From NCBI GenBank assembly GCA_963556695.1, contig CAUWAG010000012.1:1364001-1428000 (forward strand): DNA of 64,000 nucleotides. The letters are read 5' to 3'. Each line of letters opens with the position of its first letter. The first letter of the stretch is position 1. The notes beneath the pieces are model-generated. The model searched no databases. It worked only from the letters and a program-made list of their open reading frames with translations, and had not been told where the DNA came from. This DNA comes from Anthostomella pinea. Its lineage: Eukaryota > Ascomycota > Sordariomycetes > Xylariales > Xylariaceae. The translations under genes and the position numbers were made by a program. Of this stretch, positions 5,926 through 37,152 are shown one piece after another.

Positions 5926-5927
5926 TA

Positions 5928-6605: not shown

Positions 6606-6627
6606 AAGAGACGGCAAGGCCGCTTCC
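6606..6627 (+). repeat. Left terminal inverted repeat of the Starship-like block
   Basis: These 22 bases match the reverse complement of 37131-37152 at 19 positions, including the outermost 13 (AAGAGACGGCAAG). The repeat sits within a few bases of the change from A+T-rich to normal DNA. Confidence 0.75.
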
Positions 6628-8698
6628 GGAAATGGTGGCTTGAACATGCCATTTTGGGCACCTGCCCTGTCGGGCAATCCTCGGGCGTGCAACCTCTCGC
6701 TGCTTTTCGCGCACCCAGAAATGGGATCAACCCCTCATGTACCTCCCAAGTCCACTTGTACCTCTTCTTCCCTTTGCTCAGTTCATACCACGCTACGGCT
6801 GACTCCATCACAGCCCTGTCTGTATTCCGAATAGCCTTCATTCATCAATGGCATCAGTGGCCTCCAGCACCCTGCAATCAGCATATGGCTTTATCATCGC
6901 ATGCGCCATTACAATATTGCTTGTGACTTATCCTTGGCCTTTGAACTTACGCGCTGTGGCTGCCTCATAAGTCACCGAATGGGCCAAACAGTCAACTCGT
7001 CGCAGTCTACTTGGGCACTTCCATGAGCGCCCATGGAAGAAGTAACCAGATCTGTATAATAACACCTCACGTCATGGTCTGGCCAGACCCTAAACCTGCC
7101 CCGTGAGAAACGGCACAAAGGTTTGTGCCGTCACCTCATTACGGCCTTCTCCGAACCACAAGGGGCATGAAATTCCTAATCCACCAGCTTGTGATGCCAG
7201 AAGCGAGCAACGGCAGCTGACTTTCCTAATCGGGCAACTAACTGTTTAGGTCGTAATTTGACCCAACATCCAGCCGGACAAGGCCGAAGGGTCAGCGGCT
7301 CCCCCGATACCTGCAGCATGTCATAGCGACGATGGAGCTTAGTGGAAGGCAATAGTCATCTCACACATTCGGGGTACCCATCTATAAGAAAAAGTTTTTG
7401 GTCTCGATTATCAACATCAGCAGGGCGTTCTTCCGTGCAAGCAATACGACTTGATAACGGATGCTCACGAGGGTTACAATGCCAACAAGACTGCCTCTTC
7501 AGGGAATTCTGTATCCATTATGGCTTCTTGACTCCGTCAAGCTGATGCTAATTACCGAGGGCTCACAATTGCAAGGTGGCGTGCGCCTGGTTGAGGAGTC
7601 GTGCACCAAAATGCCGCCCATGATGCCACCTGGACTGGCAGTATCTGTATCCTTGTTGCATAACCCTTGAAGCTGTAAGGGTTAAGCCATTGAGCAGATG
7701 GATGCTCCTCGACTGATACCTGCTAATTTGACGCATTACTGCCTACAACCCTGCAACCCTTGTGGTGGTAGGCAGTCGAAAGTAACCCCTGCATTGAGAA
7801 ACTTTTTGGGTCTTCGCGAAGCTATGGTACCTGCTCGAAAGCTGCGGAAGATACAAAGAATCAATGTAACAGACTTGGCACCATTCCCAACGCCTGCTTT
7901 CAGCCTTAACGACACTCTAAAATATCACAAGGGTCACAAGGCATTGCTTGCCCGCTACGATGACCTCTTCAGCCTAGTTTTACCTCTTCAGGAAGTCTTC
8001 GTCTTGGCCTCGCTACCATCTGCTCATATCTGTTCTCAGCTAGTGACGAGCTGGACCAAAGGCCAGGATCGCCCACAATGAAGGTGGAGCATATTAGGCT
8101 ATATAAGCGTGAGTAAACGCCTCGTCAGCCATGGACAGGGTATCTTGTTCCTGTGCCCCGTATCCTCATGCTAAGGCACCTCTGAGAGGAATGGCTGGTG
8201 ACCCCCCTTTTCAACCTTGCCGGATGTGACTCTCCGGCTAGCCGGCCCCTAACGGGCCTCCCAATTAGCCCAGGTCAATGTTTCTGAGACGTCGTATACT
8301 CTTTCAGAACTATCTGCAGAAAGGGTCTTACCGCCGGAGAACCCGTGAGGCTGATGTTGACCCGCTCTTGACGATCTTGGCGAAATGGAATCAGATGTGG
8401 CTACAGACTATCGTATGATGTTTTGCTGGTATTGTCATTTTGAGATGGTCAAGGATTGCAAGGATGCGGAGACGTGGCAGATGGTCATATACCGCCTTCT
8501 CGAGAGCTACAACCTATTTTGGACGTCAAACACGTCAGGCTTATCTCGGCAACTGCTGGTACATTATGATAATCAGGCATTGCGACTAATATAGACTGAG
8601 AGCTGGGTTTCTTGGCAGGGTGTAAAGTATATAAGTCGTCTTTCCTCAGTCATTTGGGGGAAAAGTGTTCTGACTCAGTCTTGCTTTATCTTGTCCTC
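6628..8698. other. Left end of the block: no recognised gene, possible ORF 7698-8081
   Basis: Normal-composition DNA with no recognised domain. The best open frame is 7698-8081 (+), 127 residues starting at an ATG with mixed codon use and no motif I know. A second, 8385-8594 (+), encodes 69 residues. Either could be an exon of a decayed gene, and neither is called as a gene. A TATA-like GTATATAAGT lies near 8627, about 70 bp upstream of the Myb gene start. Confidence 0.35.
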
Positions 8699-10542
8699 AT
8701 GTCTACTTTGAAGTTCAAGGCATGGCAGCCACCAAAACCAAAGCCAAAGCGAACAACTGTTGCTCCTACATCAAAAACAAACCCTCAGCAACCTATGAAC
8801 TTCTTCCAGATGCCTTCAATCCACAGCAATCTTATCCCTCGAGTCGATGATGAGGCACTTAACTGCTATCAGACCCAGACTGTCCAGCGGTCCCTTGGGG
8901 GAGGTTTCACTGTTCAAACACCATTAGAACAGGACACTGGAGCTTTCAGTCACGGGAAACCATCCAATGACGGCCCGGCGAGGATTTTAAGGCAGCCCAG
9001 GGCATTCCTTGGAAATGCTGGTAGTACAGACTTGGACGACAGTACTATCAGCCTTTGCCAAGCCGCTGCTTCTACAGAACAACCATCAGCCTGCCATAAC
9101 ATGGATAACACTGCGGATATGTGTAAGTAATATACTTATCACGAGAAAGCTTAGACTGATCTTGTCACCCCGTAACAGGTATTAAAGACTATAACCATAA
9201 TTATAGCAGCCCGGAGAATGCCAACCCCGACGACTCTACCTGGTCCCAAGCCACACTTGTGTCGAGCCTGAACTGCATGAATAATGACAAAGATGCCGAA
9301 GCCCGTTCTCTAGCGGCCAAACTATCTGCAGATACACTGGTCACCTCTTTCTCCGAAGGTCCATCTCCTCGATTGTGCCAAAACCCCTCGGCTACTGACC
9401 CTGGCAGTGGTGCTCTAATACCGAACCCCGATGCTTCCGAGCCCGTTCTGAACGACATTTCCCGACCCCGCCGCACAAGGTCTGGTGACAACCATCTTGA
9501 ATCTGATGGGGAGAGGTACTCCGATAAGCTTGTCTTGAGCCCTGGTCAGATAAAGGAATACATTAAAGGAACCAAAATTCACCCTCGGGCTGAATCATCT
9601 GTGGATCTACTGACGGCCCCCTCCCCTATTACAGAAAGGGCAACACCGCCAAGAAGCTTGCGCTTGCTGCCTTCTCGAATGCGAGTAGACAAACTGGGCA
9701 GGTCGATCCCTCATCATGTCTTAAGCCAAACCAAGCAGTTATCCGATGGTTGAAAGCGACTTGCAGAAAGTCCGCCCGCAAACCTTCCAATAGAGAAGCG
9801 ACGGGCCAGTCGACGATCCCTCCGTGACCGAACCAAACAGAGAACGCCTATCTCAGAGGGCGTAGCAGACACCAAGCGAGTTCGGTCACGTAAAGTTCAA
9901 AACCGAAATCAACAATACGAGAACCTTTATGCGAGCACTTGAAGTAATGGCAGGCCTGGTCACGAAGTACTTGGCTCAAGAATACTTGCCTCTCCTACTG
10001 TTGCAGTTCCAGAATTACTTGTGGCAAGTTGCGACGCTTGTGGCTTTTCTGCTGGGCATATCCTCGAGTTATACAACTCAGTTGAAGCTCTGTACAAAAA
10101 GGAGAACAGTGTGACCATAATGCAGCTGTTCTTTGGTTTCATTCGCAGTCATACCACCCAGAGACTTGCCCAAGGCGGGCAGGCTGCAGATATGAATCGC
10201 TCTCATAACAGTGTGGCTCGCAGCCCCTCTGTTATTCCTTCTATGACGCCAATACCTCTATACAGCATGCGAAACGGACACATCGAAAGCGTCGAGAGCG
10301 ATAGCGATGCAGGAAGCCAGGCAGGTAGCTATGACTCTATCCCGGACCAAAGTGCCGGTTCAGGAGAAGAGGACGACACAGTGGTCAAGAGAAGTCGATG
10401 GACAGAACTCAAAGAACTTCAACTGTGGGGGTGGGTGGCAGAAGAAAAGGGATGGTTGTGGATTGCGAAGAAATTGCACCGAAGCGAAGGGGCCGTCTCA
10501 CAGCATTGGGTCATTATGTCAAAGGAAGGCTGGGAGGTATAA
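8699..10542 (+). pseudogene. Myb/SANT-domain gene, interrupted by two TGA codons
   Basis: The start at ATG 8699 fits a TATA-like site about 70 bp upstream. Exon 1 (8699-9122) ends at a good donor (GTAAGT). The intron is 9123-9178, with branch-like ACTGATC and acceptor AACAG. Exon 2 then stays in one frame to TAA 10542, except for TGA at 9751-9753 and 9940-9942. Counting through the stops gives 595 residues. Most of the protein is low-complexity. The last 45 residues (RSRWTELKELQLWGW..., WIAKKLHRSEGAV...HW) form a Myb/SANT-like DNA-binding helix set. Each stop could come from CGA or TGG by one transition. Myb/SANT genes have been reported among Starship cargo. The role here, probably transcriptional regulation, is inferred. 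Confidence 0.75.
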
Positions 10543-10746
10543 CAGGTGAACAGTGTCTTATAAGAGGCTTGTTCATCAGGCATTTCATTGTCTTTGTTGC
10601 GTTTGCTTGTAGTTTAAAGGGCGCTTTTGTTTGATAGATGTTGACGTTATGCAGTGTATATTCAAAGTTATACAGGTTTAATCGGCGTGACTTTATTAGA
10701 AAAGACAAGTCAGTAGATTGATGTCATAGGCCATATGACAGGCCCT

Positions 10747-10985
10747 GGCAGAGTAAGACGGGCTGAAAGGATACATACCGTCGTTATGCTAGCAGAATAA
10801 GATGGGCAGAAAAGGTACGTACTGCCATTATGCCCGGCAGAATAAGATGGGCAGAAAAGGTACGTACTGTTATTATGCCCGGCAGAATTGAATGGGCAGA
10901 AAAGGTACGTACCTAAGGCTAGGTGTGGCAGAATCGGTACGTACCTTGGTAGGGTTTGGCAGAAAAGGTACATACTTGTCAGCAC
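10747..10985. repeat. 45-bp tandem repeats containing GGTACGTAC
   Basis: About four 45-bp units (starting near 10747, 10792, 10837 and 10882) and two shorter degenerate units are built around GCAGAATAAGATGGGCAGAA followed by the near-palindrome GGTACGTAC. The central two units are almost identical. They lie downstream of the Myb/SANT gene in otherwise empty DNA. Confidence 0.85.
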
Positions 10986-11272
10986 AGATTCCACAACATC
11001 GGCAGAATATCGCTAATCTGTGCTCGTCGTGGCAGGCGTAAGCTATACAGCCACTACCTCATTGTGCGAGGCTGAGGGGGGGCGCTATTCCTTTGGCTTC
11101 ACTACCTGCCTTCGACCCCTCTGCTACCCATCTAATCATAACCATTGTGCTCCCAGTTGGCAGGTAGGTTCTTAGATCAGCCGGTCTTGTCAACATGTTT
11201 TTGTTTTGGTCACAAGCTCCTTTGCTCCTTTCCTCCCTTGATGTTACAACTACTAACTGGATGTGCGCATAG

Positions 11273-11931
11273 AGACTTGGCTCCAAATATCCTTCTCTAT
11301 CAAACCCGATCCACGCGACGCCTTACCTACGGACCTGCCCTCCGACACCCTCGATACTACCGCCATCTATGTTACATCCAAAACTCTGCCCCTGTTCAAT
11401 ATGATGGACACTGCTAGCTATCAAACAGCAAGAGTTAAGGGCGCCGCTTTGGCTTGCTGTTTGAGCTGTGGCAAGAAGTACGACCCAGCACGCAGCCCTC
11501 GATAGCATCATTTCCTATACGCCAACGACGATGGAACCGTCAGTCCATACGACAGTACCTGCCACGACCATATTGCCATACGCGAGACCCTGTAGAACAT
11601 TCGATCGACAGCATTCGCCTTCCGCGATGGGCTTGCGGATGACGTTGTCCCTCAGCTGCTGGCCAGGCTGCTGATGGCATTCGAAGCCCAGGAGGTTGGC
11701 ATGGACGAGGTAATGGCATTGGCTGCTTCATCGGTCTTACAAGAGACGGCCCGTCACCCTGGCTGTAACCGGATCACCTGGTGGATCATGGACAACGACA
11801 GTGGCGATCCTATAGCAGATGTCGAAACGAATCGTCTTCTCCAGGCTCGGCTGCCATTCTTGGCTGCTCGCGCTGTGCTAGTATCGCCCGACGGGGTTGG
11901 GAGGGACACCTGCTGCATAGCCTGCGCCTAG
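11273..11931 (+). pseudogene. Unrecognised gene remnant with two TAG stops
   Basis: One frame stays coding-like from 11273 to TAG 11931, broken only by TAG at 11503-11505 and 11593-11595; both would be CAG (Gln) before a C-to-T change. The left end is probably an intron acceptor: TACTAAC at 11251-11257, then GCATAG ending at 11272, with a possible donor CAG|GTAGGT at 11163/11164. The first exon could not be resolved. A CxxC pair (CLSCGKKYD) is visible near residue 70, but I know no domain. The function is unknown. Confidence 0.5.
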
Positions 11932-12931: not shown

Positions 12932-15900
12932 TTATTGGAGTGCAGCCGGTCCAGTAGTTTCAGTAGAATCAGAATTGGTTTTCTTTGCTAACAGCCTGAC
13001 CACAGCCTCATGCCCGCCCTCTGCCGCCTGCGACAGCGGCGTCCCGCCGTCGCTATCTTTTGAGTCGGGATTGACGTTCCCCGTGTCGAGCAGCAGCTGG
13101 ACCACGGCCTCGTGCCCGTGCCATGCCGCCTGCGACAGCGGCGTCCCGCCGTCGCTATCTTTTGAGTCGAGATTGACGTTCCCCGTGTCGAGCAGCAGCT
13201 GAACCACGGCCTCGTGCCCGCTCCCTGCCGCCCACGACAGCGGCGTGCGCTCGTTACGATCTTTTGAGTCGGGATTGACGTTCCCCGTGTCGAGCAGCAG
13301 CTGGACCACGGCCTCGTGCCCGTTCCGTGCCGCCAACGACAGGGGCGTCCGCCCGTCGCTATCTCCAACATTCGCGAGGAAGTCTCCAGCCAGTGTCGCA
13401 ACAGCTCCCTTCAGACCGAAATAAGCTGCCAGGTGTAATCCGGTCATGTGCTTTGGCGTTGTCTGACTGTAACCTTCCCACTCATAACCATCACTAATCC
13501 CGAGGAGTTGACTTGATGCTTCGACTTGGGCTGGCTTCTGGAGAAATGAAAGAACATTTGGACAGTTCGATACTTCGTGGCTATGATATCCCCAGTTGCG
13601 AGCCGCGTAGTCATAAAAATGGTGCAACTTAAGCCGTTCCTTGAGTTTTTTGTCTGTTGCCACGTATCCGTCTGAAAAATCGTTGAAGGCAAGGTAGGTG
13701 GTACAGACTGCCGTGATGGAGTCCTGTGCGTCGGGAAACCAGTCGCTCTTAGTCCGTTGAAAGTATTCCTGTGTTGTGTAATGAACTAGGTGGATGATAC
13801 TGCTCTCTTCATCAACGGTCACCAGCCCAGCACATATAGAAACCATATCTCCTATTTGTGGGAGGTTATCTTGGTCAAGGTTCGGCTGATCAATTTCGAC
13901 GGCCAGTGCATGTTGCAGTTCTAGTTTGGTGAGCGGCCTCTTCGCACATGTAATCCACAATAGGACTTCCTTGGCGCGCTTTGCCTGCTCTTGGAGTTGT
14001 CCTTGGATTCTTTTCATGGCGGACTGGTACGCAGTATCGTAAGCATTTGAACCGGTCGCCAGCTTTCCTATTGCCGTTCGTATAGCTCTTCGTGTATCTT
14101 TGCCTTTTAATAAGGCAAAATGGAGCTGTACAAGCAAAAACCTAAACCGATTAGCACAGACTACGCTGTCTTTTATGTATACATACATCCCGTCGCAAGC
14201 TTTTGTTATGCTTATTATGATCTCGTCTTGAAGGTCAGGCTGACTGGCGACGAATCCTGGAAGCTCGGACAAATGCCCTTACAAATATCTGCGAATGTCA
14301 CCTTTGGTTGCGCCAATCTCTTTTGACGGGCAGTCTTTGAATCGGTCTGTGATCTCCTGCATCATCCTAGAGGTCGCGAAAATGTTTATTCCCGTTTTCG
14401 TTTGAAGATTGAAAATTGCCGACAAGAACTTTGCACGGCAGCCGTCAGAAGCCTGACACTCATCCAGTGCATCAACGATAATGAAGACCCGGGAATTCTG
14501 GGCCGTTACCAGTTCGAGTGCTCTGGAGATCTCGTCCACAGATGGTCGAGTTCGTTTTCGCTTATGCCGATCGTAGAGCTCCGTCAGATTCCGTGGTAAA
14601 GAAAGCTGGCCTTGAGCTAACTGTTTCAGCAGACTCGACAACAAGCTTTCAGTAGTCTGCTCGCTTTGGCGCTTATAGTTACAGTAGACGTAGGCGACTG
14701 CAATGCTAGTCTCGCTGCCAAATCGCTTCTCAAGGTTGTCGACGGTAATTGATGTCAAGATCGTCTTTCCAGCTCCAGGGATCCCGGGACAGAATAACGT
14801 CTTGTTTGGTTCTCTGAACCAACTCGTATACTCATCGGAGTCAAGGAGCCATTGTCCTGTGCCTGGCTGACGCCTCCTCAGGTAGTCGGTTTGTTGAGGC
14901 CCGTAGTCAGTCAGTGTCAGCCAGTCCAGGATTTCGGTATCTTCTTTCTTCTCTAAGTATTGTCTTGTGTGTGTTACACCCTCATTCATAAAAAACACAG
15001 TGTTCGAGACTGTAAAAACTATCAGAAAGGACCAAACAGGGTCGGGGACCGCTGCATGGCTAATGACGATATTCCGACAAAATCCCAAGGATACAAGAGC
15101 ACTAATCATCTAACAAGATATCGCCCAACTTTTTCTCGGCCTCCACCTTGTTTGGTGCGATCCTGTGGAGGAGATCCCGCGTGTACGCGGCTGCTGTCAT
15201 TGCAGCGTAGCCTTGCCAAAGCGAGTTCTTGTGACTATCAGCATAGTCGCAAATGCCGCGGACGACGAGGAACGGAAATTGATTCATCAGTCCAGCAGCT
15301 TCCATCTCGAAGCATAACACGTTCTTTTCGAGCGAAATCTTATCGCGAATTGAGGCGTCCTTCATGAGTTGGTTGGCGGAAGCAATAAGGCCGTAGTGTA
15401 TGACGGGATCATCGTCATCCGCCGATCGTGCACGTCGGATAGTCAGTTTCCACTCGTCGTCTCCGCAAGCAGCCAAGCAGTCCTCGTCGTCTCTAGCGGT
15501 ATGGAGGATTTCGGGTTTGTAAAGCCGGTCCGTGCTAGCGTTTGGTTGTCGAAACTCATGTTGCAGCCTTGGAAATCGATCAAGGGCGCTCTCAATTGCT
15601 TTCTTAAGCTGGTGTCCCTTCATCCGATAAGTAGCGTTAAGTGCGGCCGCTGCAGCCATTATGAATGTTGGTGGCTTGTTCAAGAACCCCGTGGGAATGA
15701 AGGCCTTGTTCTGGATAGTCTTCTCGTAGTCGTACTGGTACACGCCGCCATGCGCATAGCCAGCAGAACTGACGACGACGTCCCCCAGGCAGATATCGTG
15801 CTTGGCCGGAGCACCACCGCCGATGCCAACCATGAGGCCAACTCTGAGATTTGGAAAGCTGCGTATCATATCCCTAGCAACGTTCGCAGCATTCACGAGC

Positions 15901-16112
15901 CCGTACTCCCAGTGCGGCAGTACCACAATGACCACATTGTGCTTGCCTATCCGACCGAGGGTATAGTTATTGTTGTCGTTAGCCGGCTGCGAGTCTAGTT
16001 CGCCATGATCTTCGTCAAGGAACGCTTGAGCAGCGATGAGCTCTTTCTCGACGGCGCAGACCCAGCCGATGGTGTAGTCGCTGGGATCTGGCATCGTGGG
16101 ACAGAGCGGCAC
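12932..16112 (-). pseudogene. NLR: PNP_UDP - NACHT - ankyrin, with in-frame stop
   Basis: A STAND/NLR protein read right to left. The N-terminal nucleoside-phosphorylase-like domain (ATG 16112; GIGGGAPAKHDICLGD and MEAAG motifs) is followed by NACHT with Walker A GIPGAGKT (about 14785-14762) and Walker B VFIIVDALDEC (about 14488-14456), then a winged-helix-like region and ankyrin repeats to 12932. A 45-bp intron at 14142-14186 (GTATGT, GCTAAT, TTTAG) restores KACDGM-FLLVQLH. The PNP frame ends at TAG 15102-15104. An intron at 14964-15114 would bypass that stop; otherwise it is a second nonsense codon. TAA at 14279-14281 (from CAA) interrupts the frame just after NACHT in the same reading frame. 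Such proteins trigger regulated cell death in fungal non-self recognition. This copy looks inactivated or truncated. Confidence 0.85.
12985..13375 (-). repeat. Near-identical 102-bp ankyrin repeat units in the NLR
   Basis: Four consecutive 34-residue ankyrin repeats of the form GGTPLSQAAxxGHEAVVQLLL DTGNVNPDSKDSD are nearly identical, at the DNA level as well as the protein level. They differ mainly at the two residues after AA (RN, GS, WH, EG) and a few others. High internal conservation with variation at set positions is typical of fungal NLR recognition repeats under concerted evolution and diversifying selection. Confidence 0.9.
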
Positions 16113-17844
16113 CTGTCCTCGGAGTCTTCGTTAGAGAAAATGCCCGAGGCATTGTAGCAGAGACCGCTTGGAAGACCCACTTGATTTTGGTGATATGGTA
16201 ACACCTACAATGGGAATAGCCCAGCCGCCAGGGGTTTGTGTCGCAGTTCGACTGCTAGTGACTCTAGAAATGACTTTGTTGATGTATGTGAAGAGGAGAA
16301 GAAACTATCTCTCGAATCTCTTTGTATTCATGTGTGCACTCAGTCTTTCCTTTTTGATTCCGGCTGTCGGTCTATTAATGTCGCAGGCATTTCTGCCTAT
16401 GTCGCTAGGCGCTTTTGCATTTGGAGGTAGCGAGTGCATCCCGACAAGGGGGCTTGGGCTTGCGACCGTGGCGGAGGAGACTTTGAGAACGAGCCCCTGT
16501 AAGTGCGGATATGCATCGTTCATTGGTTGGTCGTCTCTGAGCAAATTCGACTCGGGGCAGGCCAGAAAGGAAACCGGCCAATGATCGGTCTGGGTGTGCT
16601 TGCACTGCATATGAGAAGGTGATGGCGGCGACGACCAAGCCATGCCAACTCGGCGTTCGACGGCAGGCTGGCAGATATTGGACGCATCGCTCGGATGGAA
16701 CGAGGATTGTGCAATTAAATGCAGGCTATGAAATGCAGTCAGACGATGATGTTTTCTGCCAACGGCCAAGATCGGCAAGCCATCAGCCTAGAAAACATAT
16801 TGTTATTGGGACAAGGCGTAATGAATGGGATGGTCAAAGCCGGTGCCCTAGTAAGACAAAATCTGCCTTGCGATGAACTCCAAGTCGTCAGTGAGCGAGG
16901 GCGGTAGCCTCGAGCCCTCGCTTCCAACCCAACCAACGTTGGCCATGTTCGGTCAATCAGCCCCTGCGCCACATCCCGGCACTCATTGCTGACGTGTCCC
17001 ATGATGACGTTCGCGGCATGTGACCCTTGCTCAATGCCCGCGCCTCATGCTCGAGTTTGGCCTGCCGTCTCGCATCGCCGATGTGTCTCGGCTTGGGACT
17101 TGTTGTCGGCTCGGGGCTCACTGTGACAGTCCGGGTTAACGAAGGTCTGGGAGCCAAGCTTCAATCGTTTATAAGTTTGTGTGCGCTTACATGTGTTTGT
17201 AGTGTGCTGGTATCGCCGCTATCTATCGTGAACAGGAAGACCATACTTGGGCGCAGATGAACGCTCAGGCGGGGAAATATATTTGATTACAGAAGAGCGG
17301 TGGCATGGCCTTCCCCTAAAACCAGCAATGGACTTGAAACCGAGCGTCGCCCGAGCCCCTCATTCGGCTTCCACCGCCCCCGCCTCTAACGGGCTGGCTC
17401 AGTGGGCTGTGGCCATTATACCTGGCGCAATAGTACACGCTTAGAACGTTTTTAGCTAAGGATAATGGATAACGCGTCGTGACGATAGTCCCAAGTACTT
17501 TGTATTAAGTGAATGAAAAGGGCCTGGCCTGCGCGTCGACATCTAAGAAGAGATTCAAACTCCATTAATAGGAACTCGGATAGATAGATGATTTCATGAG
17601 TTCTTGTACCTGTTTTATTACTGATCCGGTTAGGCTCTGTTAGGAAACCTGTCGCCATGAGCATTTGTTGGAATATGTGCTCAATAGGGCAGCCGCTGTA
17701 ACGTCCACTAATTACAGGGCTCCTAGCCCCTAAAAAGGCCCCCTATTAGCCACCGGCTCGGAGCGCCTATTGTGAGATCATCTAGAGCCTTGTTGAGCAA
17801 CATATATGGTCATCATGATGGATCACCTTGCTGGATAGTCCATC
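16113..17844. other. Intergenic region upstream of the NLR, no recognised gene
   Basis: Several overlapping open frames occur here on both strands, but none shows a known motif, convincing introns or consistent coding character. The last 16112-16200 stretch is the presumed 5' region of the NLR gene. Confidence 0.4.
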
Positions 17845-18356: not shown

Positions 18357-20195
18357 TTAAATCAGTTGAAATGTTTCTACTATATATTGCCCCTTCTGCC
18401 AGTCCTTAATTGCCTCGCCATTCATTAGACCGTATACGTAACACTCACCGACAAAGAGATAAGAATCCCCAACAGGTCGCAGGACCATCGGTGTCGCTCC
18501 TCCAAAAAGTATACACAGAATATCATTTTCCTGCATGATACTTGGCCCAAGACCAATATACGTTTGATCTTCTGTGAAGAACACTCTGTGGTAATGCGCT
18601 GTATCCAGATGAAGACGGTAGATATTTGCGTCGGCCTCAACATCTGACACTATATTAGCTAAACGGTTGGCACAATCCTTTTCGAATTCTGCCTGGTCTC
18701 TGTCTGGCGCTGCTTCATTACGCAGCCTGTGATTTGCTTCCCACAAGTATGCCCAGAAGTGGCTGGTTGACTGATCTACTACCCGCTCCTGGTTGGTGAG
18801 GTTCCAGTTCGCCGACAGTGTTATCATAACCGCCCGTGCAAGTGCCTCGTTTGTCGTATACCGGGCTCCAAGGCGGCGACACGTCTCGTTGAATACAACC
18901 AGCGCCTGGGGACCAAACGAGTTAAGAACAGAGCTCGACATGACCTCACACACGGCATTGATAGCGTCGACTCGGAAACCCTTTACGGCAAGAATGTCGT
19001 CTGACGAGTGCTGGACATCAACTGGAAGGCCCCCGGCAGCGTTATTTGATATTTCCTTGACCGACCGCCAACCCTTTGCGTGAGGGCTCCACGCAAAGTA
19101 CGATATTCTCTCCCATAATACATCACCAGCGAAATCCACAACCCAGGAAGGATAGGTGTCCCAATCGGGATGATAGCGAATCAGCGTAAGAATGCTGAGA
19201 TTTCTAGACGACATGATAATATATCGCGTTATATTGCGGAAAACATCCCGAACTGGCTTGTCGTAATTTGCTCGAAGCGCTGTCGGCAGGACAGAAGTTT
19301 CGCCAGCTTCCTCTGTCAAGCCTATAAGGGAGTAGACGCGGTCTCGTGGTTCTGAAGCTTCAAATCGTCTGGTTTTGTTGAGCAGTGTTGTCAGGTCCCA
19401 AGGCACACCTAACTGATTCAGTTCGCTAAACAGTTTCAGTGACCTTAAAGCCGCTACGGTTATTGGTCGAAGGTTTAGAGGAGTTAACTTGTAACACATC
19501 GATGCGAGCCATGTTGCCGAAGATAAGATGGATTCCCACGACAGCTCATGTGTTCCACAGAGCATCTGGGGGGTAACCTTTGAGAGGACCGCTTCTTGTA
19601 TAACCCAAGACCTGGTAAACCATGGGCGTGAGAGAATATCCCCGAGGACATCCCATGATGGATCCTCATGATAAGGCAGGCCTGCCGCCTTGTATTCGTC
19701 AATCGTATAACGCCGCCGCTTCCGATTACCGCTCCGTTCGAGATCCCGGTTGTAGAGATGCGACAGTTTCTCTAGCAGCGTTCCGACGGCTCCGATACCA
19801 GGGATCTTTGCACCCAGCCAGATAATCGTTCTCTCGGAGGTTTGGTAGATGGCCTTCATCATGTCAACCTGACTTCCACGCTCTGAGATGTTGGCCTGAT
19901 TGATGCAAACTTGATCAATCCAGATCCATTCGACGCCACCACGATCGAGCTCGGTCAGATCCTGCAAGGCCCCCGTAAGGACCGGGTTGATCATCAATTC
20001 GCATCCATTGCATCGAATAGATACTGATCTGCCATCGCCGCCCCAGAAATAGCTAAGCGCGTTGAATTTGGGAGCCCCGGCAAGTGGAAAAACGGCCAAT
20101 TCGTACTCAAGATACTTGGTTGCGGCGTCTGAGGTGAATCGAAGAAGGCGTATAGCCTTTTGCGGGAGCGGAGAATACATGTACGTATTTGCCAT
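18357..20195 (-). CDS. HET-domain (heterokaryon incompatibility) protein
   Basis: An intact single-exon frame of 612 residues from ATG 20195. The HET domain spans about residues 43-190, with its three hallmark blocks visible: NALSYFWG (45-52), WIWIDQVCINQANISERGSQV (90-110) and ERTIIWLG (121-128). The long C-terminal part has no further motif. HET domains are TIR-related cell-death effectors acting in the cytoplasm during fungal heterokaryon incompatibility, often downstream of NLR or other recognition proteins. Here the gene follows the NLR on the same strand and is free of the stop codons that damage its neighbours. A partner relationship with that NLR is inference only. Confidence 0.93.
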   Translation of the reverse strand: MANTYMYSPLPQKAIRLLRFTSDAATKYLEYELAVFPLAGAPKFNALSYFWGGDGRSVSIRCNGCELMINPVLTGALQDLTELDRGGVEWIWIDQVCINQANISERGSQVDMMKAIYQTSERTIIWLGAKIPGIGAVGTLLEKLSHLYNRDLERSGNRKRRRYTIDEYKAAGLPYHEDPSWDVLGDILSRPWFTRSWVIQEAVLSKVTPQMLCGTHELSWESILSSATWLASMCYKLTPLNLRPITVAALRSLKLFSELNQLGVPWDLTTLLNKTRRFEASEPRDRVYSLIGLTEEAGETSVLPTALRANYDKPVRDVFRNITRYIIMSSRNLSILTLIRYHPDWDTYPSWVVDFAGDVLWERISYFAWSPHAKGWRSVKEISNNAAGGLPVDVQHSSDDILAVKGFRVDAINAVCEVMSSSVLNSFGPQALVVFNETCRRLGARYTTNEALARAVMITLSANWNLTNQERVVDQSTSHFWAYLWEANHRLRNEAAPDRDQAEFEKDCANRLANIVSDVEADANIYRLHLDTAHYHRVFFTEDQTYIGLGPSIMQENDILCILFGGATPMVLRPVGDSYLFVGECYVYGLMNGEAIKDWQKGQYIVETFQLI

Positions 20196-20668
20196 GGTTA
20201 TTGCCCGTTCTTTGCAAGTCTAAAGGGTTGTGTAGTGTTTTAGGTTGACGAGACGCAAATGTATTACAAATTCAGATCACGTTCTGCCGCAGTTGATCCC
20301 TCAAGCCCCATGTCAAGACTTGGGAGAACTCCGGCCTTGGAAACCTGAACAATGAGGATTATCATATGGGCATGTGTCGGTATTGGGTGGCAGGATTGGC
20401 GACGGCCCTACAGCCTGACGCGCAGGATGCCTTGCGACAACAGTAGCAGATCGCCGATCTAAGTCTGTATGCCCGCGCCACTTTGTCAGACTGCCGACCA
20501 TCTGGTGCCCTGCACGGCTTTTTACCAACCTCTACTGGACATGAATGTTGCAGCGGGCGTCTCTCTTGCATGAGCTGACAAGGTGAGAGGCAGGCTGGCC
20601 TTGGCGTGGCATATAGCCCCGGTAAAACCTGGCAGTCTCTCAGATCTTGCAGACTTATCTTCTGACTA
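20196..20668. other. HET upstream region, no recognised gene
   Basis: Presumed promoter side of the HET gene. It is separated from the DUF3723 promoter by the Tc1 insertion. The open frames here show no motif. Confidence 0.4.
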
Positions 20669-22017
20669 CAATCGGGGGACAAAAGTCTCCGTACAGCCCC
20701 ATTTCTGGACCCCTGACCTGCTACACCTCACAACTCAATTGAACCACAACACACTCAATTCTAGTCAGAAAATTCTCAAATAAATTGCATTCAATAGCCC
20801 GTTCAGTAATGCGTGTACTATTCACCAGCACGCCTGCATGCGGCGATGAGATCGCAAACAGACTCGATCAGCACGCGTACCTGCTCAGGATCGATCTCGG
20901 ACCACGCCCTCTCAATTAACTCGTGTGCGTACTGGTAATGAGGAATATTGTCCTTCAATTCGGAGAATTCAGGCTCGATAGCACGTATCTGCCTCTTCAG
21001 AAGTCGCCAAACGTGCTCGATGGGGTTAAGATCGGGGCTGTGAGGAGGCCAGTCGATATAGTGAATCCCGTGCTCTTCTAGCCACTCCGGAACACCTCCT
21101 GAGAGGTGAATTTTCGCGTTATCTTGAATAAAAGGATCTCCAGCCTCGTAGAAGGGAAGGAGGCCGTTCTCAAGGACCTGTTTATATGACTCTGCGGATA
21201 CTCCTCCGCGCGGAGCATCCGGATCGAGTGGGCAGAAGATCAACTTGCCCAGTCCTCCTTCTCCATCGCGTAGCCAGATCTGAGACCACACCATTATCGA
21301 AATACGAGGCTTTCCGTGACTCGTGGGGTTCACGAGATCGTAACGGTACCGCTCTGACGAGTATCGGATGACCCAATCGCCTGGATTATCCGATTCATTT
21401 TGGACCGTACACTCGTCAGAGAACAGTGCCTTCAAGAGCTCGAGAATACGCTCCGGATGGTCATAATATTCGGCAAATTCGCGCCTTATCCGAGCCGTCT
21501 CCTCGTTCAGCTCGATTCTTTTGGCTGCTGGCCACTTCTCAAGCCCTCTGGCGTGGCAGAGGCGCTTGATAGTCTTCGCGCAGCAGAGAACGCGGGCCTT
21601 GTTTCGGATCTTCTGCCACGAGGCCCTGGGGAAGTCCCTCGCTGCCTGAATAACACGGGCGCGTTCGCGAGTGTTCAGAGCACTTGGTCGACCACTTCTG
21701 GGAGCAGATTTTGTGGTGGTGGTGGTCTCAAAGCGCTTGACAGTCTCAGTAATGGTGGCAGGGCGCGTGGTTTTGAACGCGTCGGCAACCTCCTTGCGGC
21801 TCTGCCCCAGCACTCTCGCCGCCACAATGGCAGAGCGAGCATTGTGAGTAAACTCCCCGTTCGGCGTGCGACTGCCGCTCAATTCGTCTCCAAAAGATCG
21901 AAATACCATCGTGATTTGCGTTGTTGAGAGAGTGTTGAAGTTGAAGAGTGGTTGACGCGTTGTTTTGATAGTCGGAGATTAGTGGTGGGGTGTACGGAGA
22001 CTTTTGTCCACCCAGTT
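20669..22017 (-). mobile_element. Complete Tc1/mariner transposon in the HET/DUF3723 intergenic region
   Basis: Imperfect inverted ends share the core GGACAAAAGTCTCCGTACA (left from about 20675, right ending about 22010), and the element is bounded by TA on each side (20667-20668 and 22018-22019). It is about 1.35 kb and carries one intact transposase. It sits between the divergent HET and DUF3723 starts, about 0.2 kb from the latter, so it could have altered expression of either gene. Confidence 0.88.
20818..21909 (-). CDS. Tc1/mariner-type transposase (DD34E)
   Basis: An intact 363-residue frame. The N-terminal helix-turn-helix region (about 20-70) is followed by a GRPS basic linker and a second DNA-binding segment (about 80-125). 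The catalytic triad is D165 (FSDECTVQ), D263 (FIQDNAKIH) and E298 (SPDLNPIEHVWRLLK), giving DD34E spacing as in Tc1-like enzymes. It would excise and insert the surrounding TIR element at TA. No premature stops, so it is probably a recent insertion compared with the damaged genes around it. Confidence 0.95.
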   Translation of the reverse strand: MVFRSFGDELSGSRTPNGEFTHNARSAIVAARVLGQSRKEVADAFKTTRPATITETVKRFETTTTTKSAPRSGRPSALNTRERARVIQAARDFPRASWQKIRNKARVLCCAKTIKRLCHARGLEKWPAAKRIELNEETARIRREFAEYYDHPERILELLKALFSDECTVQNESDNPGDWVIRYSSERYRYDLVNPTSHGKPRISIMVWSQIWLRDGEGGLGKLIFCPLDPDAPRGGVSAESYKQVLENGLLPFYEAGDPFIQDNAKIHLSGGVPEWLEEHGIHYIDWPPHSPDLNPIEHVWRLLKRQIRAIEPEFSELKDNIPHYQYAHELIERAWSEIDPEQVRVLIESVCDLIAACRRAGE

Positions 22018-22240
22018 TAGCATAGGTGACCCCAGTTTTTGGATTTAGGTTCATTATGCGGCTGCAGAGCAGAACCCTGTTTCTCGGACCTCCTAGAACA
22101 CTGCCTAGCCTAGTCCTAGGAGTATGAGGTTTCTTGCGTGCCTCACAAAAGATTAGTATGTTATCATTTATGTTCTTTCTACACGAAGCGCCGATCTTCG
22201 ACCGCCCGTTTGTCTTCCTCGACTTGGCCAACGCGTCTCC

Positions 22241-25171
22241 ATGGCAGACGCAAACCTTATCGGGATTATCAAGGTCCCATTGTGTGCTTTCACCTACCAG
22301 CCTGAAGTAGGTAGGGAAGAGTCTCCGATTATCGTGAAGTGACTGGCCAATGTATTCCGCAGGACACGTTGTAGGTCCAATCGATGGGAGAACCACGTGC
22401 AAGGACATATCAACAGTAACACCTTGGAAGCAATACTGGCAGCTCTCGGCCGTACCAAAGAACAGCTCTATTTAACTGTATACGCGGGGGATTACCCTCA
22501 GGTCTACCTAAAGAGGCAGATCCTTTGCCTTGATGGTAGACATAGGCTGGCGGCAGCGAAGAAGGTTTTCGGTAACGGGGTATGGCGGCCGGTGAAGCTC
22601 TACACTACCCCGCCAGGTACGCAACATCGCGCCATGGTGAATCAGAAGAGACTGACACAAATAACAGGACCGTGTTTCCTTCACCAGACAACATACTCCG
22701 ACGGGGAGATATACCGCGGGAAGAGGCTCTGTCAGCTGGCCAAGCAAGACCTCCTGGCTCGAGAATGGACAGTGCAACTGTCATCGAGCAAGCAGCCGAT
22801 TGTTCGGCAGCTGTCCAGGAATATTGAGATTGTTAAAGCACTGGATAAACTCCTGCCTTACCCGGGGCTCTGGACGGGGTTGAGAATTGACAACCTGTAT
22901 AAATACCTTGCACTGCAGTGTGTCGAGCAGATTCTCAACTACCTCGGCCACATACATCACGTCTGGTCAACAATAACGGTGGGCATCATGCCGGAAACGG
23001 TTGACAACAGTTCGGTTGGTGTCCTGCAAGGCCGTGCCCCGTCCGTCGCAACAGACCGTATTTACATTGAGCACATGTTCAACCAGAATCAGATCTTTGT
23101 CCGCGTTTCCGACCCTGCAACCCGCAGCCGGCTTTTAGAAAGGATACTGTCATTGGGCAAGATGATACCCAGCATATGGACATTTGAAAAGAGCATGAAG
23201 TATTTCGAGCTGGGTGCGAGAATTCTGAGGCGCGAGCTGTTTGCAGGCCAAGAGAATGTCGATCCGGAAGCCAATGTCAATCCGGGGACCAATGTGAACC
23301 CGGAGGCCGAGGAGCCCACGCTCCTCCAGAGACTCAAGTGGCAAAATCCAATGACACCTACCGTCGAGGTGGCCGAGGGGGTCTTTGTTGAGTCTACTGT
23401 CATAACTAAGGAGAAAGCACTCAAAGCGCTCTTTCTATTCCCCCTGCGGCACTTCCCCTTCTTGGGACCCGATCCGCTGCTCCAAAATGTAAAGGGCGAA
23501 GGTATCGTAGCGGGCCTAAGCGACCTGCATTCGCTTCATCTCCGTGCCCGGGCCAGGGAATTTGGGTTTGTGTTGAGTACGCTCGATCAGGAACTGTGCC
23601 AATTATATCCCCTTGTCGTAGACCCCGTGAGCACAAAGCGACGGTCTATGCCTTGGAGAGGTGGCAAGCCCTTTGTCAGTACGTTCTTTGAGCTACGACC
23701 AGTCGCATTTCTTCCTACTCTAGATGCAGCCGATCCATGCAGCGGCGTCACCCCTGCGTTTGTATTAAAGCACTTTATGGATGCATATTTCGGCGCTTCT
23801 TCCTACGCGATGGACGTGCCGGATTCTATGGACGAATCCGGCATGTCGTCACATAGTCTGCCAGCGCCTTCAGCGCAAGCACCCGTCGGCTCCCCACGCT
23901 CAGGAGAAGGCACAGTCCATTTACCACCAATTGGATCACAATTCAGTAACAAGCCAAAGGAGCACCACGGGCGAGCCGAAGAGGGGGCTCGGCACGCCGG
24001 AGAACCGGTAGGAGATAATACCAAGGAAATACCGGTGAACGGCGAACTCTGGACAAGGCCCCCGAACGCGCCTACTTCACGAGAATCCATAGACCAGTTC
24101 GACGTTCAGCTCCCTGATCGATCAGCACAACGCTCCCCGATCTTCACCCCGGAACCTGAGGGCAACACACAAGCAAGTCTGGAAGCTAGTGCAGGGCAGT
24201 CAAGCCTAGCTGGACATGCGAGCTCGACAGTCTTCCGTCCTGGTGTGGCACTTGACGCCAGCGTATTCAGCCCCCCTACGCATCCGCACCCGAGGCCTAG
24301 GACGTACCTCAAGAAGGAGCATAGGAAGAAAGATAAGGAGAAGAGAGGACTGAATAAAATCCGGAAAAAATCCCTCGGCGAGCCACTGGTTCGTCCTGGG
24401 CAGCAGTCAAATACTGACCGTTCCAGATTCACGTTCTGGTCACATAAGAGACGAGGGAATACTCCGCCCATACCGGAAGAACCCAGGCACACTCCAATCT
24501 TTCACTTAGAGGATGCGCCGCGGAAACCCAAGAGAAAACATACCAATAAAGACCCCTAGGTAGACATAAGGCCGGCGAAGGACCCATCCCGGGGAAAGAG
24601 ACCAAGATTGCATGGGCCCCATGGGAAGGCTGGGACCAAGCGGACGGTTTTTCGGACCAGGGATGGTTGGAAGTCTACCATACGGCGACAGAGCACCGGA
24701 GGCAAAGGCAAGGAGAGCATGCCGAGACCGCGCCGGGACAGCGATAATGTTCCGGCAGATCCTCAGCGGGACGACCAATATATTGAGCGTGAAAGATCAC
24801 CACCGGAAGACACAAAACGTCACGGGAGTTCAGACGCGATAGCAGGAAGCCATACTCCATCTTCTGCTACCCAGGTCCGATAGACCAGTATATGCCCCTT
24901 GAAACGCAGAATATAGATACTAACATGATGTTAGGGTGCCTCCGGCTCGCGACGGTCTCGTGAGGGGGGTGTTTGGGCCCAACAAGCCACAAGCAGTAAA
25001 GAGGTGACAGGAACTCCGGGCCATACAGAGGAACATCCCAAGCGTGGAGCTTTTGCTCGAACGAAGGAGGAGTACCCTGTGTACGAAGACTGGCCTAGTG
25101 ATACGGAGATTCCAGTCCCCACTAGGGAGAGGTCGGCACCGGCATCTTCAGAAGATGACGGGATTTTGTGA
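22241..25171 (+). pseudogene. DUF3723 protein gene with two nonsense codons
   Basis: One frame runs from ATG 22241. The DUF3723 core shows EVGREESPIIVK, NVFRRTRCRSNRWENHV and QILCLDGRHRLAAAKKVF (about residues 94-112). After residue about 520 it becomes Pro/Ser-rich and then basic (KKEHRKKDKEKRG). TGA at 22340-22342 and TAG at 24557-24559 interrupt the same frame. A probable intron at 24875-24934 (TACTAAC branch, TTAG acceptor, weak donor GTCCGA) leads to a last exon 24935-25171. Counted through the stops the product is about 956 residues, a normal length for the family as I recall it. DUF3723 genes are frequent Starship companions. Their biochemical role is unknown. Confidence 0.85.
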
Positions 25172-31608: not shown

Positions 31609-33031
31609 ATGTCAGACTGTCGACCCTGCAATACATGTAACAGGAAGATCTTGAGAAGTAACTTTGCACGCCACCAACAACGGCATAATGAAACACATCA
31701 GATAACTTGCAAAATCTGTGATGTCATTATATCGAGAAAGGGAAAAAAAAGGCACATTGGAACCCAAATACACAAAGACAATGCACAGCAGAAAGCACAT
31801 CCAGTAAGTGATCTTATTCTTTAAACTACAAAATATGGGTTTTATCATCTTTTTTCACCTTGCTAATTACGTTTTATAAAGACCGGCCACCTTTCTGATC
31901 TTCAGCCGTTAGCAGAAGCACAGATCATAACAACCCCCCCAAAAGACGAGATAGATTTCCTTATACACGAATTCCTCAGCACCACGGGTGGCCTTTTATC
32001 GTATCTATCTTCTGCGTACGCAACTGAGATCAAGAGGACTGGCGGACTGTCAAATCTCAATCCGTCTAGGGAGACGGCGGTGACTCGGAACTGGGCCGGC
32101 CTTGGGTTACGATCTCCCATGCTTTTTCCTGCAGTTGAATGTTGGAAGGAAAAGCCGTCTTTAGAGGACTATCTTACAGACCTGCTTTATGGGTTTCGGA
32201 AAGAGACAACAAAAATCTACTCCCGACGTAATCCTTCTGATCCTCTTGATAAGCCGCGTTTTCAAACCATTATGCGACAGTTGGACAATCCGGATCCATC
32301 GTCTACTCTATACGCTATCAATATGGCCGCCGAGTCAGTCGAAATCAAGATCCTGGAGCGACTACTTGGACAGGTCTCTATATATCAAGATATCTGCCCT
32401 ATTACGACGACAAATATTACTCCTAAGTATTCAGTTGCAGGGCTCCATGTTGGTACATGAGATCTGATCATGCTGCAAGCGATATATTAACAAGACAATA
32501 TATCTAGACCACAGAAAACATGGTGTCACGCTGCTCCATGGAGGATGCGTCAAGCTTTGGGCACTCTATCCCTTGACTCCTCTTAATATGCAAGAATTGT
32601 CCGCAGCACACCGATCTGATGCTGCCTTTATCGAGCTCCAAGGCCGGCTTGAAGGCGGTGAATTCTGTGTTCAGACAGAAGATCAAGCAATCTACCTGCC
32701 TCCAGGCTGCATTCATAGTACTTACACTCTCCGGGGCGGCTTCACTCCGGGCATCGAATTCAGCACAGTCGAGTGCTTGGAGCCAGCAGCGGCGATTTTG
32801 GATCTGAACTCGCAGGGATTCAGGCTTTGTGGGAATGATTGTTATCCTTTTCTTGAAGCTATTACTATAAGAATCCGCTCCAAAAACCCAGACCGGCGAG
32901 AGAAAGCCCTGGAGCTTTTATGCCCGAGGTACAAGAAAGTCTATAAGCTCAAGTCGAGAATTTTGTTCAAGGTCCTAAAGGAGCTGCCAAAGTCCTGTTC
33001 GAAATACGCTAAGGTATGTGCGAAGCATTAA
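31609..33031 (+). CDS. C2H2 zinc-finger plus JmjC-like protein
   Basis: Exon 1 is 31609-31803. Intron 31804-31881 (GTAAGT, TTGCTAATTAC, AAAG) joins exon 2, 31882-32452. Intron 32453-32507 (GTACAT...TCTAG) joins exon 3 in frame and creates LHVDHRKHGVTLLHGG. Exon 1 carries two C2H2-like fingers (CNTCNRKILRSNFARHQQRH; CKICDVIISRKGKKRHIGTQIH). Exon 3 has the JmjC-like cupin, with the HVD iron-binding pair and LPPGCIHSTYTLRGGF. Without further splicing it ends at TAA 33031 (429 residues). An intron from GTATGT at 33014 to 33056 would instead end it at 33071. JmjC proteins are Fe(II)/2-oxoglutarate dioxygenases, many of them histone demethylases. The substrate here is unknown. Frame intact. Confidence 0.75.
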
Positions 33032-33382: not shown

Positions 33383-33699
33383 AGCATTTGGAATTATAGT
33401 GACATATATCCATTCGGCAAAGTGGTTTCTTAGATCAATACGAAATCAAACGAGCGTGATAAAGGCATGTGAGGAGTCGTACCTAACAGTATCAAATAGT
33501 TTGAATAAGGAAAGATATACCTACTAGGCAGTATCTAGCCAAGGACTCTTGAGGTTACGAGACGGGCAACGGCACGCGCAAGAGTGGCAATACGCGAGAA
33601 AATAATGGCACGCAACGCAAATTTACGCACGTACCAGATGAAGGAAGCGTGGACCCCATACCATCTCGGTGTCACCAGCTACCTAAACCCCGCCCCATC

Positions 33700-34060: not shown

Positions 34061-34284
34061 AGGTGGACCGAGCCATCAGCATACAGATAGAAAACACAAG
34101 ATTGACAAAGAACCTCACATATACATAATATAATCTATCTTCAAGATCGTTCAGTAGGACTATATCTAATAAAACGCACTTTAGTAAATTCAAGTTATTA
34201 TCCGCAGTTTCCAAGACCCCGTATCACCTGTATGTCCCCATTACCTAATTCCCAGCTTTACTACATTTGGATACATGAAAGCCC

Positions 34285-36738
34285 TTATGACACAGTGTTG
34301 TGAACCCGCAAGGCATGGTTTTGTAGATGCATCTTAGAAGACAGTGTGAAATCGCAGACTTCACATTCTGGTGTCGAATCTTGCGCCAAAAGGGATAAAT
34401 GTTTCCGCTTAAAGTGCTTCGTCAGATCTCCGGGGGTATAGAATTCATACGTGAGATCTTCTACACGAGGGTCATTAGGCTCCAGAGGAAGCGCGGCTCC
34501 AATGCATAGGAAGCATCTCTTAGGTCTTTCTCTGTCATTGCGAATAAACATAGACAGCCTAGCAATAGAAACGGGGTTATCCTCTGGGGGCCCAAGCGTG
34601 GGTTTGAATTATGCTTCCTTGGTCAGCGAGGTGAATTTGCGACGTGAAGTTTGTCCTTCCTCAATGCTACAATAGGTAATAATTGCATTGATGGCATCGT
34701 CCCTTCATCAATATTGGCCTTGGAGAGTAGGGTCGACAAGCGCAGTCAGGGCCTTAACTAGTCGTTTCTGCGCTGGAAGTTGCGGACGATGGGCTATGTC
34801 CACCGGTACGGGCTTAGTGAATGTAACGCCTTACAATTAGTGTTCTATGTCATCTATGGCCTGCTCGTCTGTCCAGTCTTCTCGGATCTTTTGGAGGAGC
34901 AACTTCTTCAGTCTCTGCTTTAGATTTCGAAGTTCCTGCTGTGCATCGATCTGTTGTTTCGTCCCTAGTCGTAGGTTCTTGAGTTGTCTTATAAGCCGCC
35001 TCACGTTGGGATCTGTGTTAACAGACACCGCTTGCTCAGGAGTAAGATCTACTGGCCGCCGCTTGCTCATCGAATGACCGATACTGCAGGATTGTTTTAA
35101 TAGTGCTTGTTGCGGCTTCTGGCCGCAAAGAATTCCCCACATGTCTGCGCGAACAGCGCGACCCAGGTAATGCTTTTGGAATGGGGTCGAGTTGGCGTGG
35201 TCTAGCGTCAGGTTACAGAGTGCTTTACTAACGTCGGCTGCATTGGAATGTCAGCACAATAGATTCCTTGGAAGTACGGGTAGAACGTACGGCTCTGGTC
35301 CAATTCATTGCCTGCATTATAGCGCAATGAATATGTGATGATTGGGTATTAAAGGCCTAGAATCTCTCCAATCCTCTTAATCCACCCCGACATCATGTCA
35401 TAGGTGATGGGTTCCGCCTGTGATATCTGCAGCCCGGTAGCGGTTGTAATGACTCGGCGGAATATGCATACGTCTTTGAGGTCATCTTTGAGTGGCAAAG
35501 ACAACTCCTTCTTGCCAGGGTGGATATCAAGATCGTCTAGATAGCGAAGACAGACAAGGCTAGGAGCCCGGAAAGCTTGATGTTGGAACAAGATGCCAAG
35601 GAGGAAGACATAAGGGCTGAGAAGCAAAGATGGATCAAACATGGTTTCGGGGATCGTGAACGTCTTACTAAGCACCCGTGGTATTAATATCAAAGAGCCC
35701 CAAGTTGCCAGGATAAAACACTTATGCATCTTTTGTCCCAAGGTACGTCTTAGTAAACTCGAGAGTAAACTTGATCAAAAGCTTGTGTGGCCCGCCGTCT
35801 GGATCTCTCGCTAATACAACCCAAATATCTCCAAATCGGAGCCGCAAGATGGATTTTAGGCGTGAGGCGGAAGGAGCCAGGAAGAGAAGAAATAAAACGG
35901 TAAGAATCCGGAGCTCCCCGAGGTCGAACGACTTCCTTGTCGTGCTCAGTGTTGTCTCAATCTGTGCTTTGAGGTCGTCAATGGTCATACAGCGGTTTTC
36001 CCTTTTTTGGTCGCTCAGTTTGTGTTTCTTTGCTAGTGATCTCAAGACCTGAAAGAAAATATTAGAAATAGGTCTTCGGTGGGTCATCAAATTCCTATTT
36101 ACCATATGCATGTTGCAATTCAATTTCGGATCAAGCTTCGCACCCATGGCTGTCTCATACACAAGACGAAAGACCTTCCAATTTGTGCCTAGTGAACTGC
36201 TCTTCTTCGTTCCCCTTTTTTTCCGTCCATTCTTGCCAACCATTTGGTTCAAGGACCAATCGAAAAAGTTGTAGAGGAGACGGATATCAATAGACTCAAA
36301 GCAAGTCTGGGGATCCCGTCCCACTACGTCGGTGCAGAACCTGTAAGAAAAATATCGTTAGCATGAGAAGAAATAAAGCACTAGAATGACTTACGTCCGC
36401 CACTGCTTCTCGATTGCGTCAAGTAGCACTGTGCTTCCAGGACTGTAATTTCCGCTGTCAAAAGCACTCTTGTTGAACTCTCGTAGTGCCCTCTGGTAGT
36501 ATTCCGGCGGATGAACATTCCCTGCGAAGAGGTGGACTTGATCTGCAACGTTGAAATCGTCGTCAGTGAAGTCCTCTACGTCCGTCACGTCGCTCTCTGG
36601 GCTGGATACATCCTCGTCCACGTCAAGGAAGTTGTCAGCATCCACATCCCCTACTGCAGAGAAAGATGCGTCTGTGTCGTACAGGTCGTCGGTGACTTGT
36701 GAGTCACATGGCTCATTGTGGACGCGTTGGCGGGCCAT
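34285..36738 (-). pseudogene. DUF3435 captain-type tyrosine recombinase, degenerate (copy A)
   Basis: Read from ATG 36738: an acidic N terminus, then a DUF3435 core in pieces. Intron 1 (GTAAGT, CATGCTAACG, TTACAG) joins QWRT to FCTDVVGRD; intron 2 lies after NCNMHM. The core shows DLGELRILTVLFLLFLAPSA, LRLRFGDIWVVLARDPDGGP, FDPSLLLSPYVFLLG, GWIKRIGEILGL and YSLRYNAGNE, matching known DUF3435 proteins. The tail (34285-34551) has two zinc-finger-like motifs (RCFLCIG...HFKRKH; CEVCDFTL...HALRVH). Damage: the intron-3 donor reads AT instead of GT (35725-35724), TAA at 35349-35351 replaces CAA, and about 190 bp is missing relative to copy B. The family catalyses Starship excision and integration. 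This copy should be inactive. Confidence 0.88.
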
Positions 36739-37130
36739 GCTAGTAACGCTATAAGGGATACTCGATCATAATAAGTGCAGTTCACCAGAAGAGGTTGCGC
36801 TCACTCAACTGGAGGTAAAAAGGAAGAGCAAACGCAAAAACATTGTTGACCAACTGGAGCGAAAGAGCTGGTATTTAAAAGGAATATATGAGCCATCTCT
36901 GGTTATGCTGCTGACAGGCCGAGCAAGCAAGGGAAGGGAAAGGACACAGCATCGGTGCCAGATACCGAACTGAATAAGAGTCCAGGATTTGGGTCATGAT
37001 GTACTTTGAACGATACATTGAAGTACAAGGCCCATGGGCATGGTGGGGCATGGTGGGGTATGCAGCTTAAAGCGGCGTCGGATCGCTGGCAAATGCACTG
37101 CTGGACTTGGAGGCAGAACATGCCGAAATA

Positions 37131-37152
37131 GGCAGCGCACTTGCCGTCTCTT
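37131..37152 (-). repeat. Right terminal inverted repeat of the Starship-like block
   Basis: Reverse complement of the left terminus at 19 of 22 bases, exact over the outer 13 (CTTGCCGTCTCTT on the plus strand). It lies at the border with RIP-like DNA and about 0.4 kb upstream of the recombinase ATG. Confidence 0.75.

Follow-up and report, generated by a model that had tools for sequence, protein, structure and literature searches.

The segment 6598-37165 of the window (the whole stretch of 64,000 nucleotides of Anthostomella pinea DNA that was analysed) is very probably a derelict Starship, one copy of a family that is multicopy in this species. It is a genuine Starship family, which adds a member to a kind of transposon already known, and displays constant ends, exchangeable interiors and insertions of the Starship type, with the derelict copy lying in the window. 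Its least expected part is a conserved tail gene, located at the end opposite the captain.

Element ends and their copies in the genome

The genome, 53.7 Mb in size, comprises 16 contigs; the window corresponds to C9:1364001-1428000, and copies of both ends were searched in this same genome. The 701-bp captain end matched at 15 other places and the 1-kb tail end at 14 other places, one of which was split in two pieces on C16 (alignment row L033 is the inner piece of that copy and L037 its outer end). A pattern search allowing up to three mismatches and including the window identified 17 captain ends and 15 tail ends, with 1 and 0 hits, respectively, for the reversed patterns. All 15 tail ends and 16 captain ends, the one at C7:668078 not being among them, were read, and one common terminal base was found for each type. 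The 14 other captain ends that were aligned terminate at ...TTTGTTTAAGGTAGT or a near variant and the 14 other tail ends begin at AGTATNATAAGAGACGG or a near variant, with no likeness between the aligned copies visible by eye outside the shared boundary. Since this boundary is common to the genomic copies, the true ends were assigned to 6598 and 37165, with AGT on both sides. The original prediction had placed the borders at 6606 and 37152; the element it described is real and its ends lie 8 and 13 bp further out. The two exceptions to AGT among the ends read were one ACT (captain) and one CGT (tail). The features of the ends are as follows.

6598-37165, no strand: complete element of 30,568 bp, with AGT counted on both sides; boundaries common to the 14 other captain and 14 other tail ends aligned; paired ends
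6598-6600, + strand: AGT direct repeat, tail side; AGT in 14 of 15 tail ends read
37163-37165, + strand: AGT direct repeat, captain side; AGT in 15 of 16 captain ends read
6606-6627, + strand: terminal inverted repeat, tail side; 19/22 identical to the other arm, 17-18/22 in four sibling pairs
37131-37152, - strand: terminal inverted repeat, captain side; inverted match to the tail-side arm

Base composition changes abruptly at both borders, as predicted, with a GC content of 0.504 inside the element versus 0.257 and 0.227 in the flanks. The RIP index (CRI) is -0.42 in the element (not RIP-like) versus +0.66 and +0.79 in the flanks (RIP-like). Composition as the sole proof of an element was rejected, because a host-gene island within the window has equal contrast. 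This GC-rich island of 5.4 kb (43.3-48.7 kb) lies between AT-rich blocks and carries HAUS1-like and Vac14-like genes at 43506-47436. The inverted termini claimed previously (13/13, and 19/22 when extended) were both reproduced: AAGAGACGGCAAG occurs exactly at 6606-6618 (+) and 37140-37152 (-), with no other exact match in the window. Allowing up to two mismatches, four window sites were found versus 1.34 expected; as four sites were also reached in 2 of 100 shuffles, the window alone lends modest support to the termini, and the genome-wide end counts are decisive.

Pairing of tail and captain ends

Five tail-captain pairs in Starship order and strand were identified at distances of 10-200 kb, with lengths of 18,672, 20,980, 30,568 (the window copy), 40,774 and 188,202 bp and terminal inverted repeats matching at 17-19 of 22 positions in all five. 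The four pairs within 50 kb compare with an expectation of 0.09 if ends are placed uniformly (no trial out of 20,000 gave four) and of 0.52 if labels and strands are shuffled among the observed end positions (5 of 20,000). For the five pairs within 200 kb, the corresponding expectations were 0.44 (reached in 3 of 20,000) and 0.90 (10 of 20,000). Control counts were zero for the reversed order and, for opposite strands, zero within 50 kb and one within 200 kb; on C5, one tail end and one captain end in reversed order are separated by 1.7 kb and so fall below the 10-kb floor of the count. The possibility raised beforehand that the termini are common dispersed repeats holds in part: they are dispersed indeed, but as the paired ends of a mobile family.

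No partner end was found within 200 kb for 12 of the 17 captain ends and 10 of the 15 tail ends. The many unpaired ends are read here as decay, and some seem to have lost their partner, since a captain with its 5' side cut off (C5:3574110-3575421) lies 43-44 kb inside the tail end at C5:3531453. Contig C5 holds a cluster of such sequences, in which a second captain end (C5:3887764, L015) is located 1.7 kb past the tail end of the 188-kb element (C5:3697871-3886072) and a further tail-captain remnant at 3.53-3.58 Mb.

Insertion target and empty sites

In the search for empty sites, the flanks of each pair were joined with one AGT and compared with the same genome. Paralogous empty sites were obtained for two of the five pairs (21.0 and 188.2 kb). 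In the case of the 21.0-kb pair, sequences spanning the junction were found in repeats on C3, C4 and C15; the C3 and C4 sites are free of gaps for 20 bp on each side and 33/43 identical each, and the C15 site has gaps around the junction in BLAST and none at the junction itself in MAFFT. For the 188-kb pair, C7:4926911-4927391 crosses the junction without gaps for 20 bp on each side (31/43 identical). The junction bases at the three clean sites are AGT (C4), AAC (C3) and AAA (C7), AGT thus being present in one only. Within the genome, the joined flanks of the window copy and of the 18.7-kb pair gave the self-match only, as did those of the 40.8-kb pair, for which a right flank of just 25 bp makes the test a weak one. 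The usual Starship finder requires a well-resolved empty site for annotation, according to the available text of PMC12153272.

All 31 ends read have a GC content of at most 0.28 in the 100 bp outside, a value also found in 149 of the 334 100-bp bins that cover the remainder of the window beside the element (window bins only). At positions +4 to +6 after AGT, columns that were picked after the end profile was seen, A occupies 37 of 48 cells versus a mean of 18.4 and a maximum of 27 over 270 slid positions. Insertions are mostly at AGT(N3)AAA, in AT-rich, RIP-like DNA.

Captain gene

Two captain-type sequences are present in the window.

34285-36738, - strand: DUF3435 captain gene (Pfam PF11917), pseudogene; 6 in-frame stops, lost splice donor
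57989-61268, + strand: second captain-type sequence, a 5'-truncated relic beyond the element; its aligned part shares 87% identity with the open copy

The captain was modelled with five exons. It is the terminal gene and reads inward from an ATG at 36738, 427 bp inside the element end, in agreement with the predicted distance of about 0.4 kb. The intact captain copy matches PF11917 at 2e-106, the match to a C-terminal C2H2 finger staying under the cut-off for that domain. Residues R257, Y414, R417, H441 and Y451, which we take to be the catalytic residues of a tyrosine recombinase, are invariant in 26 aligned sequences (the captain from C5 together with 25 selected out of 120 listed relatives). 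Among the 15 highest-ranking chains of a fold search, 13 were Flp, Cre or XerH and one more came from the CBF3-Ndc10 complex; no chain reached an E-value of 0.001 with the query model, which is of low confidence at the active site. The captain of the 188-kb copy, modelled with 737 amino acids, shares 99% identity with an annotated Anthostomella pinea protein of 744 amino acids.

The window captain has 6 in-frame stops and, in comparison with its sibling, lacks a splice donor. The gene is a pseudogene and the window element is therefore immobile, as originally proposed. Of ten captain copies spanning at least 2,667 of 2,893 bases (shorter fragments were left out of the stop count), only the reference at C5:3697871 is open, the other nine carrying 1 to 14 stops each. 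The captain copies share 78-94% identity with the open one, and their decay is dominated by C-to-T changes; C-to-T and G-to-A account for 644 of 946 differences from the majority in ten captain-module copies, with a rate in CpA and CpG about twice that in CpC and CpT.

Tail module and tail gene

The opposite end of the element comprises the following features.

6598-11823, + strand: tail module common to many copies; the window copy departs at 11823, where the siblings go on together
8699-10542, + strand: tail gene, two exons (8699-9122 and 9179-10542); 2 in-frame stops, weakly Myb-like C-terminus

The tail module measures at least 5.2 kb. When compared with the window, 11 of 12 sibling stretches end at 11823 and the twelfth one base further. 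Position 11823 as a fixed inner boundary was rejected, however, as 11 of the 12 siblings stay alike for at least 0.2 kb beyond it and ten of them for at least 0.45 kb; only L044 departs, after about 20 bp. Because the siblings stay alike past this point, the window copy is the odd one.

Among eight copies, the tail gene is free of stops only in the 188-kb element. In a ninth, C5:3533565-3535159, the matched pieces are stop-free but about residues 188-270 are absent, and of the copies examined only the 188-kb copy keeps both the captain and the full tail gene open. The only relative of the tail protein that was found is P0121 from Xylariomycetidae sp. FL2044, with 69% identity (7,999 word-sharing candidates scored, 5.8 billion proteins). 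The C-terminus of the tail protein appears weakly Myb-like: 47 residues of P0121 match c-Myb repeat 3 weakly in the PDB (E-values of 0.31 and 0.44, the only two hits). Pfam returned no Myb/SANT match at E≤0.01 in window positions 9943-10542 and none at E≤1 in P0121, and the C-terminal region of P0121 used as a query gave the self-match only. A structure prediction of the tail protein had a mean pLDDT of 32.9 and was not used. In the literature from 2021 on, no paper was found that combined Starship, captain, Myb and recombinase or that linked Anthostomella pinea and Starship, and a search there for SANT with Starship captains met the string only as authors' surnames in the available text of PMC13373834.

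The C-terminus of the tail protein has short matches at C9:702780 and C7:237956, which lie 3-27 kb from other DUF3435 matches (C9:699650, C9:683171 and C7:265081), whose orientation relative to the tail-like match differs between C9 and C7. Given this proximity, other Starships in Anthostomella pinea may carry a tail-like gene.

Cargo

Between the two ends, the window copy contains the following.

12935-16130, - strand: NLR-type gene in three adjoining open frames; PNP_UDP_1, NPHP3_N/NACHT, winged helix and ankyrins (Pfam)
18360-20219, - strand: HET-domain gene (Pfam)
20666-22020, - strand: Tc1-like DDE transposon inserted in the cargo; 34-bp inverted repeats, 85% complementary
22343-24556, + strand: DUF3723 gene (Pfam)
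31867-33028, + strand: two adjoining open frames, the second with a weak JmjC resemblance below the cut-off

Of the cargo named in the original prediction, the DUF3723, HET and NLR-type genes were recovered by Pfam and the Myb/SANT assignment was without Pfam support. Cargo pieces recur among siblings in other combinations, and the interiors differ between copies. Among the genomic DUF3723 matches listed, only two are long and cover profile positions 1-388. The window copy contains the first of these and the 188-kb copy the second, and shorter matches occur elsewhere on C9 and C5. A DDE transposase of the Tc1/pogo kind was considered as the mobiliser and rejected, the only DDE gene inside the element having its own 34-bp repeats.

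Alternative explanations

A repeat with the captain and a repeat with the tail gene, both dispersed and unrelated to each other, might have come to lie 30 kb apart by chance with an accidental inverted match, an explanation that we regard as highly improbable. It would accommodate the 12 captain and 10 tail ends without a partner within 200 kb and the 13-bp match that is just modestly above chance in the window. However, pairs in the correct order and strand exceed both null models, the inverted repeat and AGT are common to both end types, and uninterrupted paralogous sites exist for two pairs. Furthermore, the inner limits of homology vary between copies, unlike those of a small transposon, with two captain copies sharing one at 33462, and the longest contig listed is of equal size for the FL2044 captain and tail relatives.

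An even smaller likelihood is assigned to a GC-rich gene island between RIP-degraded repeats, with borders made by RIP and not by transposition. The strongly RIP-like flanks and the ordinary host-gene island at 43.3-48.7 kb favour such an origin, but RIP would not yield a common AGT boundary and inverted repeats in 15 captain and 15 tail ends. It is also very unlikely that the copies were spread by segmental duplication of one old insertion in place of independent transposition: the 78-94% identity of the captain copies to the open copy and their C-to-T-dominated decay would fit this, whereas flanks without visible likeness directly outside AGT, in an alignment judged by eye, argue against it. 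A Starship family with a derelict copy in the window is the preferred explanation.

Comparison with known systems

The prediction of a Starship-like element was borne out by shared fixed ends, a 3-bp direct repeat, inverted repeats, an inward captain, varied cargo and empty sites of siblings. The features by which Starships are recognised are an inward-reading terminal DUF3435 captain, short direct repeats, terminal inverted repeats (usual, not universal), and a size of at least 15 kb with variable gene cargo, all of which were found here (18.7-188.2 kb in five pairs). Cryptons are also tyrosine-recombinase transposons, only very distantly related to captains, and inverted repeats and sizeable cargo mark Starships off from them (PMC12134995, in the part available).

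In the accessible portion of PMC12153272, Aspergillus fumigatus Starships have direct repeats of 2-12 bp in 19/20 and inverted repeats in 18/20 cases, and share with the present family a terminal captain, short direct repeats, inverted repeats and variable cargo. One of them, Lamia (Galactica family), has the target A(N)TAGT according to the same text; AGT is the only part of this target that agrees with the present family, a resemblance to Galactica and not an assignment. In contrast to these Starships, the captain is 38% identical to the nearest A. fumigatus protein among those listed (P0090), and the single genome of Anthostomella pinea analysed here contains one family in numerous decayed copies. 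AT-rich targets and RIP-damaged derelict copies in two hosts are described for the Starship Pi-rho, taken here as Prometheus, in the available sections of PMC11623301; AT-rich targeting and RIP-damaged derelicts recall the present family, whereas the letters of its example targets (PMC12153272, as far as available) differ from AGT(N3)AAA. A further counterpart is known from two proteins of Xylariomycetidae sp. FL2044, a captain relative (P0002, 80% identical) and the tail relative P0121. Both proteins list a longest contig of 1,169,578 bp, a strong sign but no proof of a shared contig.

Proposed mechanism

Recombination by the captain most likely takes place between the AGT core and AGT sites, with the inverted repeats as binding sites. 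As a tyrosine recombinase, the captain would bind the AAGAGACGGC inverted repeats near both ends and cut and join strands at the AGT core, and all DNA between the ends would move into a new AGT site in AT-rich DNA. C-to-T decay would later have killed the window captain. The 188-kb sibling, whose captain and tail gene are both open, is possibly still active, and copies may have been mobilised by it in trans. It is conceivable, although we consider it doubtful, that the family has a two-part chassis, with the captain and a dedicated tail gene at opposite ends, the two kept together in two species, and everything between them exchangeable; the tail protein would then be a second transposition component, for example in marking the far end or in steering into RIP-degraded, AT-rich heterochromatin. 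As one genome provides 16 captain and 15 tail end readings together with the target motif, the paralogous empty sites and the 188-kb copy in which captain and tail gene are open, the needs of the far end of a Starship and the coexistence of RIP with giant transposons become testable.

Other repeats in and around the element

The second captain relic (57989-61268) lies on the strand opposite to the window captain, and its 5' cut adjoins a dispersed repeat at 57644-58008. A Tc5/pogo-like DDE transposon with inverted repeats (3998-5993) adjoins the left border, and a diverged second copy was found at 52650-53847. A relative (75%) of the Tc1-like transposon is located in the captain end of the 40.8-kb sibling (L019), upstream of the coding part of the captain. 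The repeat at 62481-63979 is LINE-like, with a sub-threshold RNase H match and an AAAC tract at its end, and copies of it occur at five of the 15 captain loci that were retrieved (L017, L018, L021, L022 and L023).
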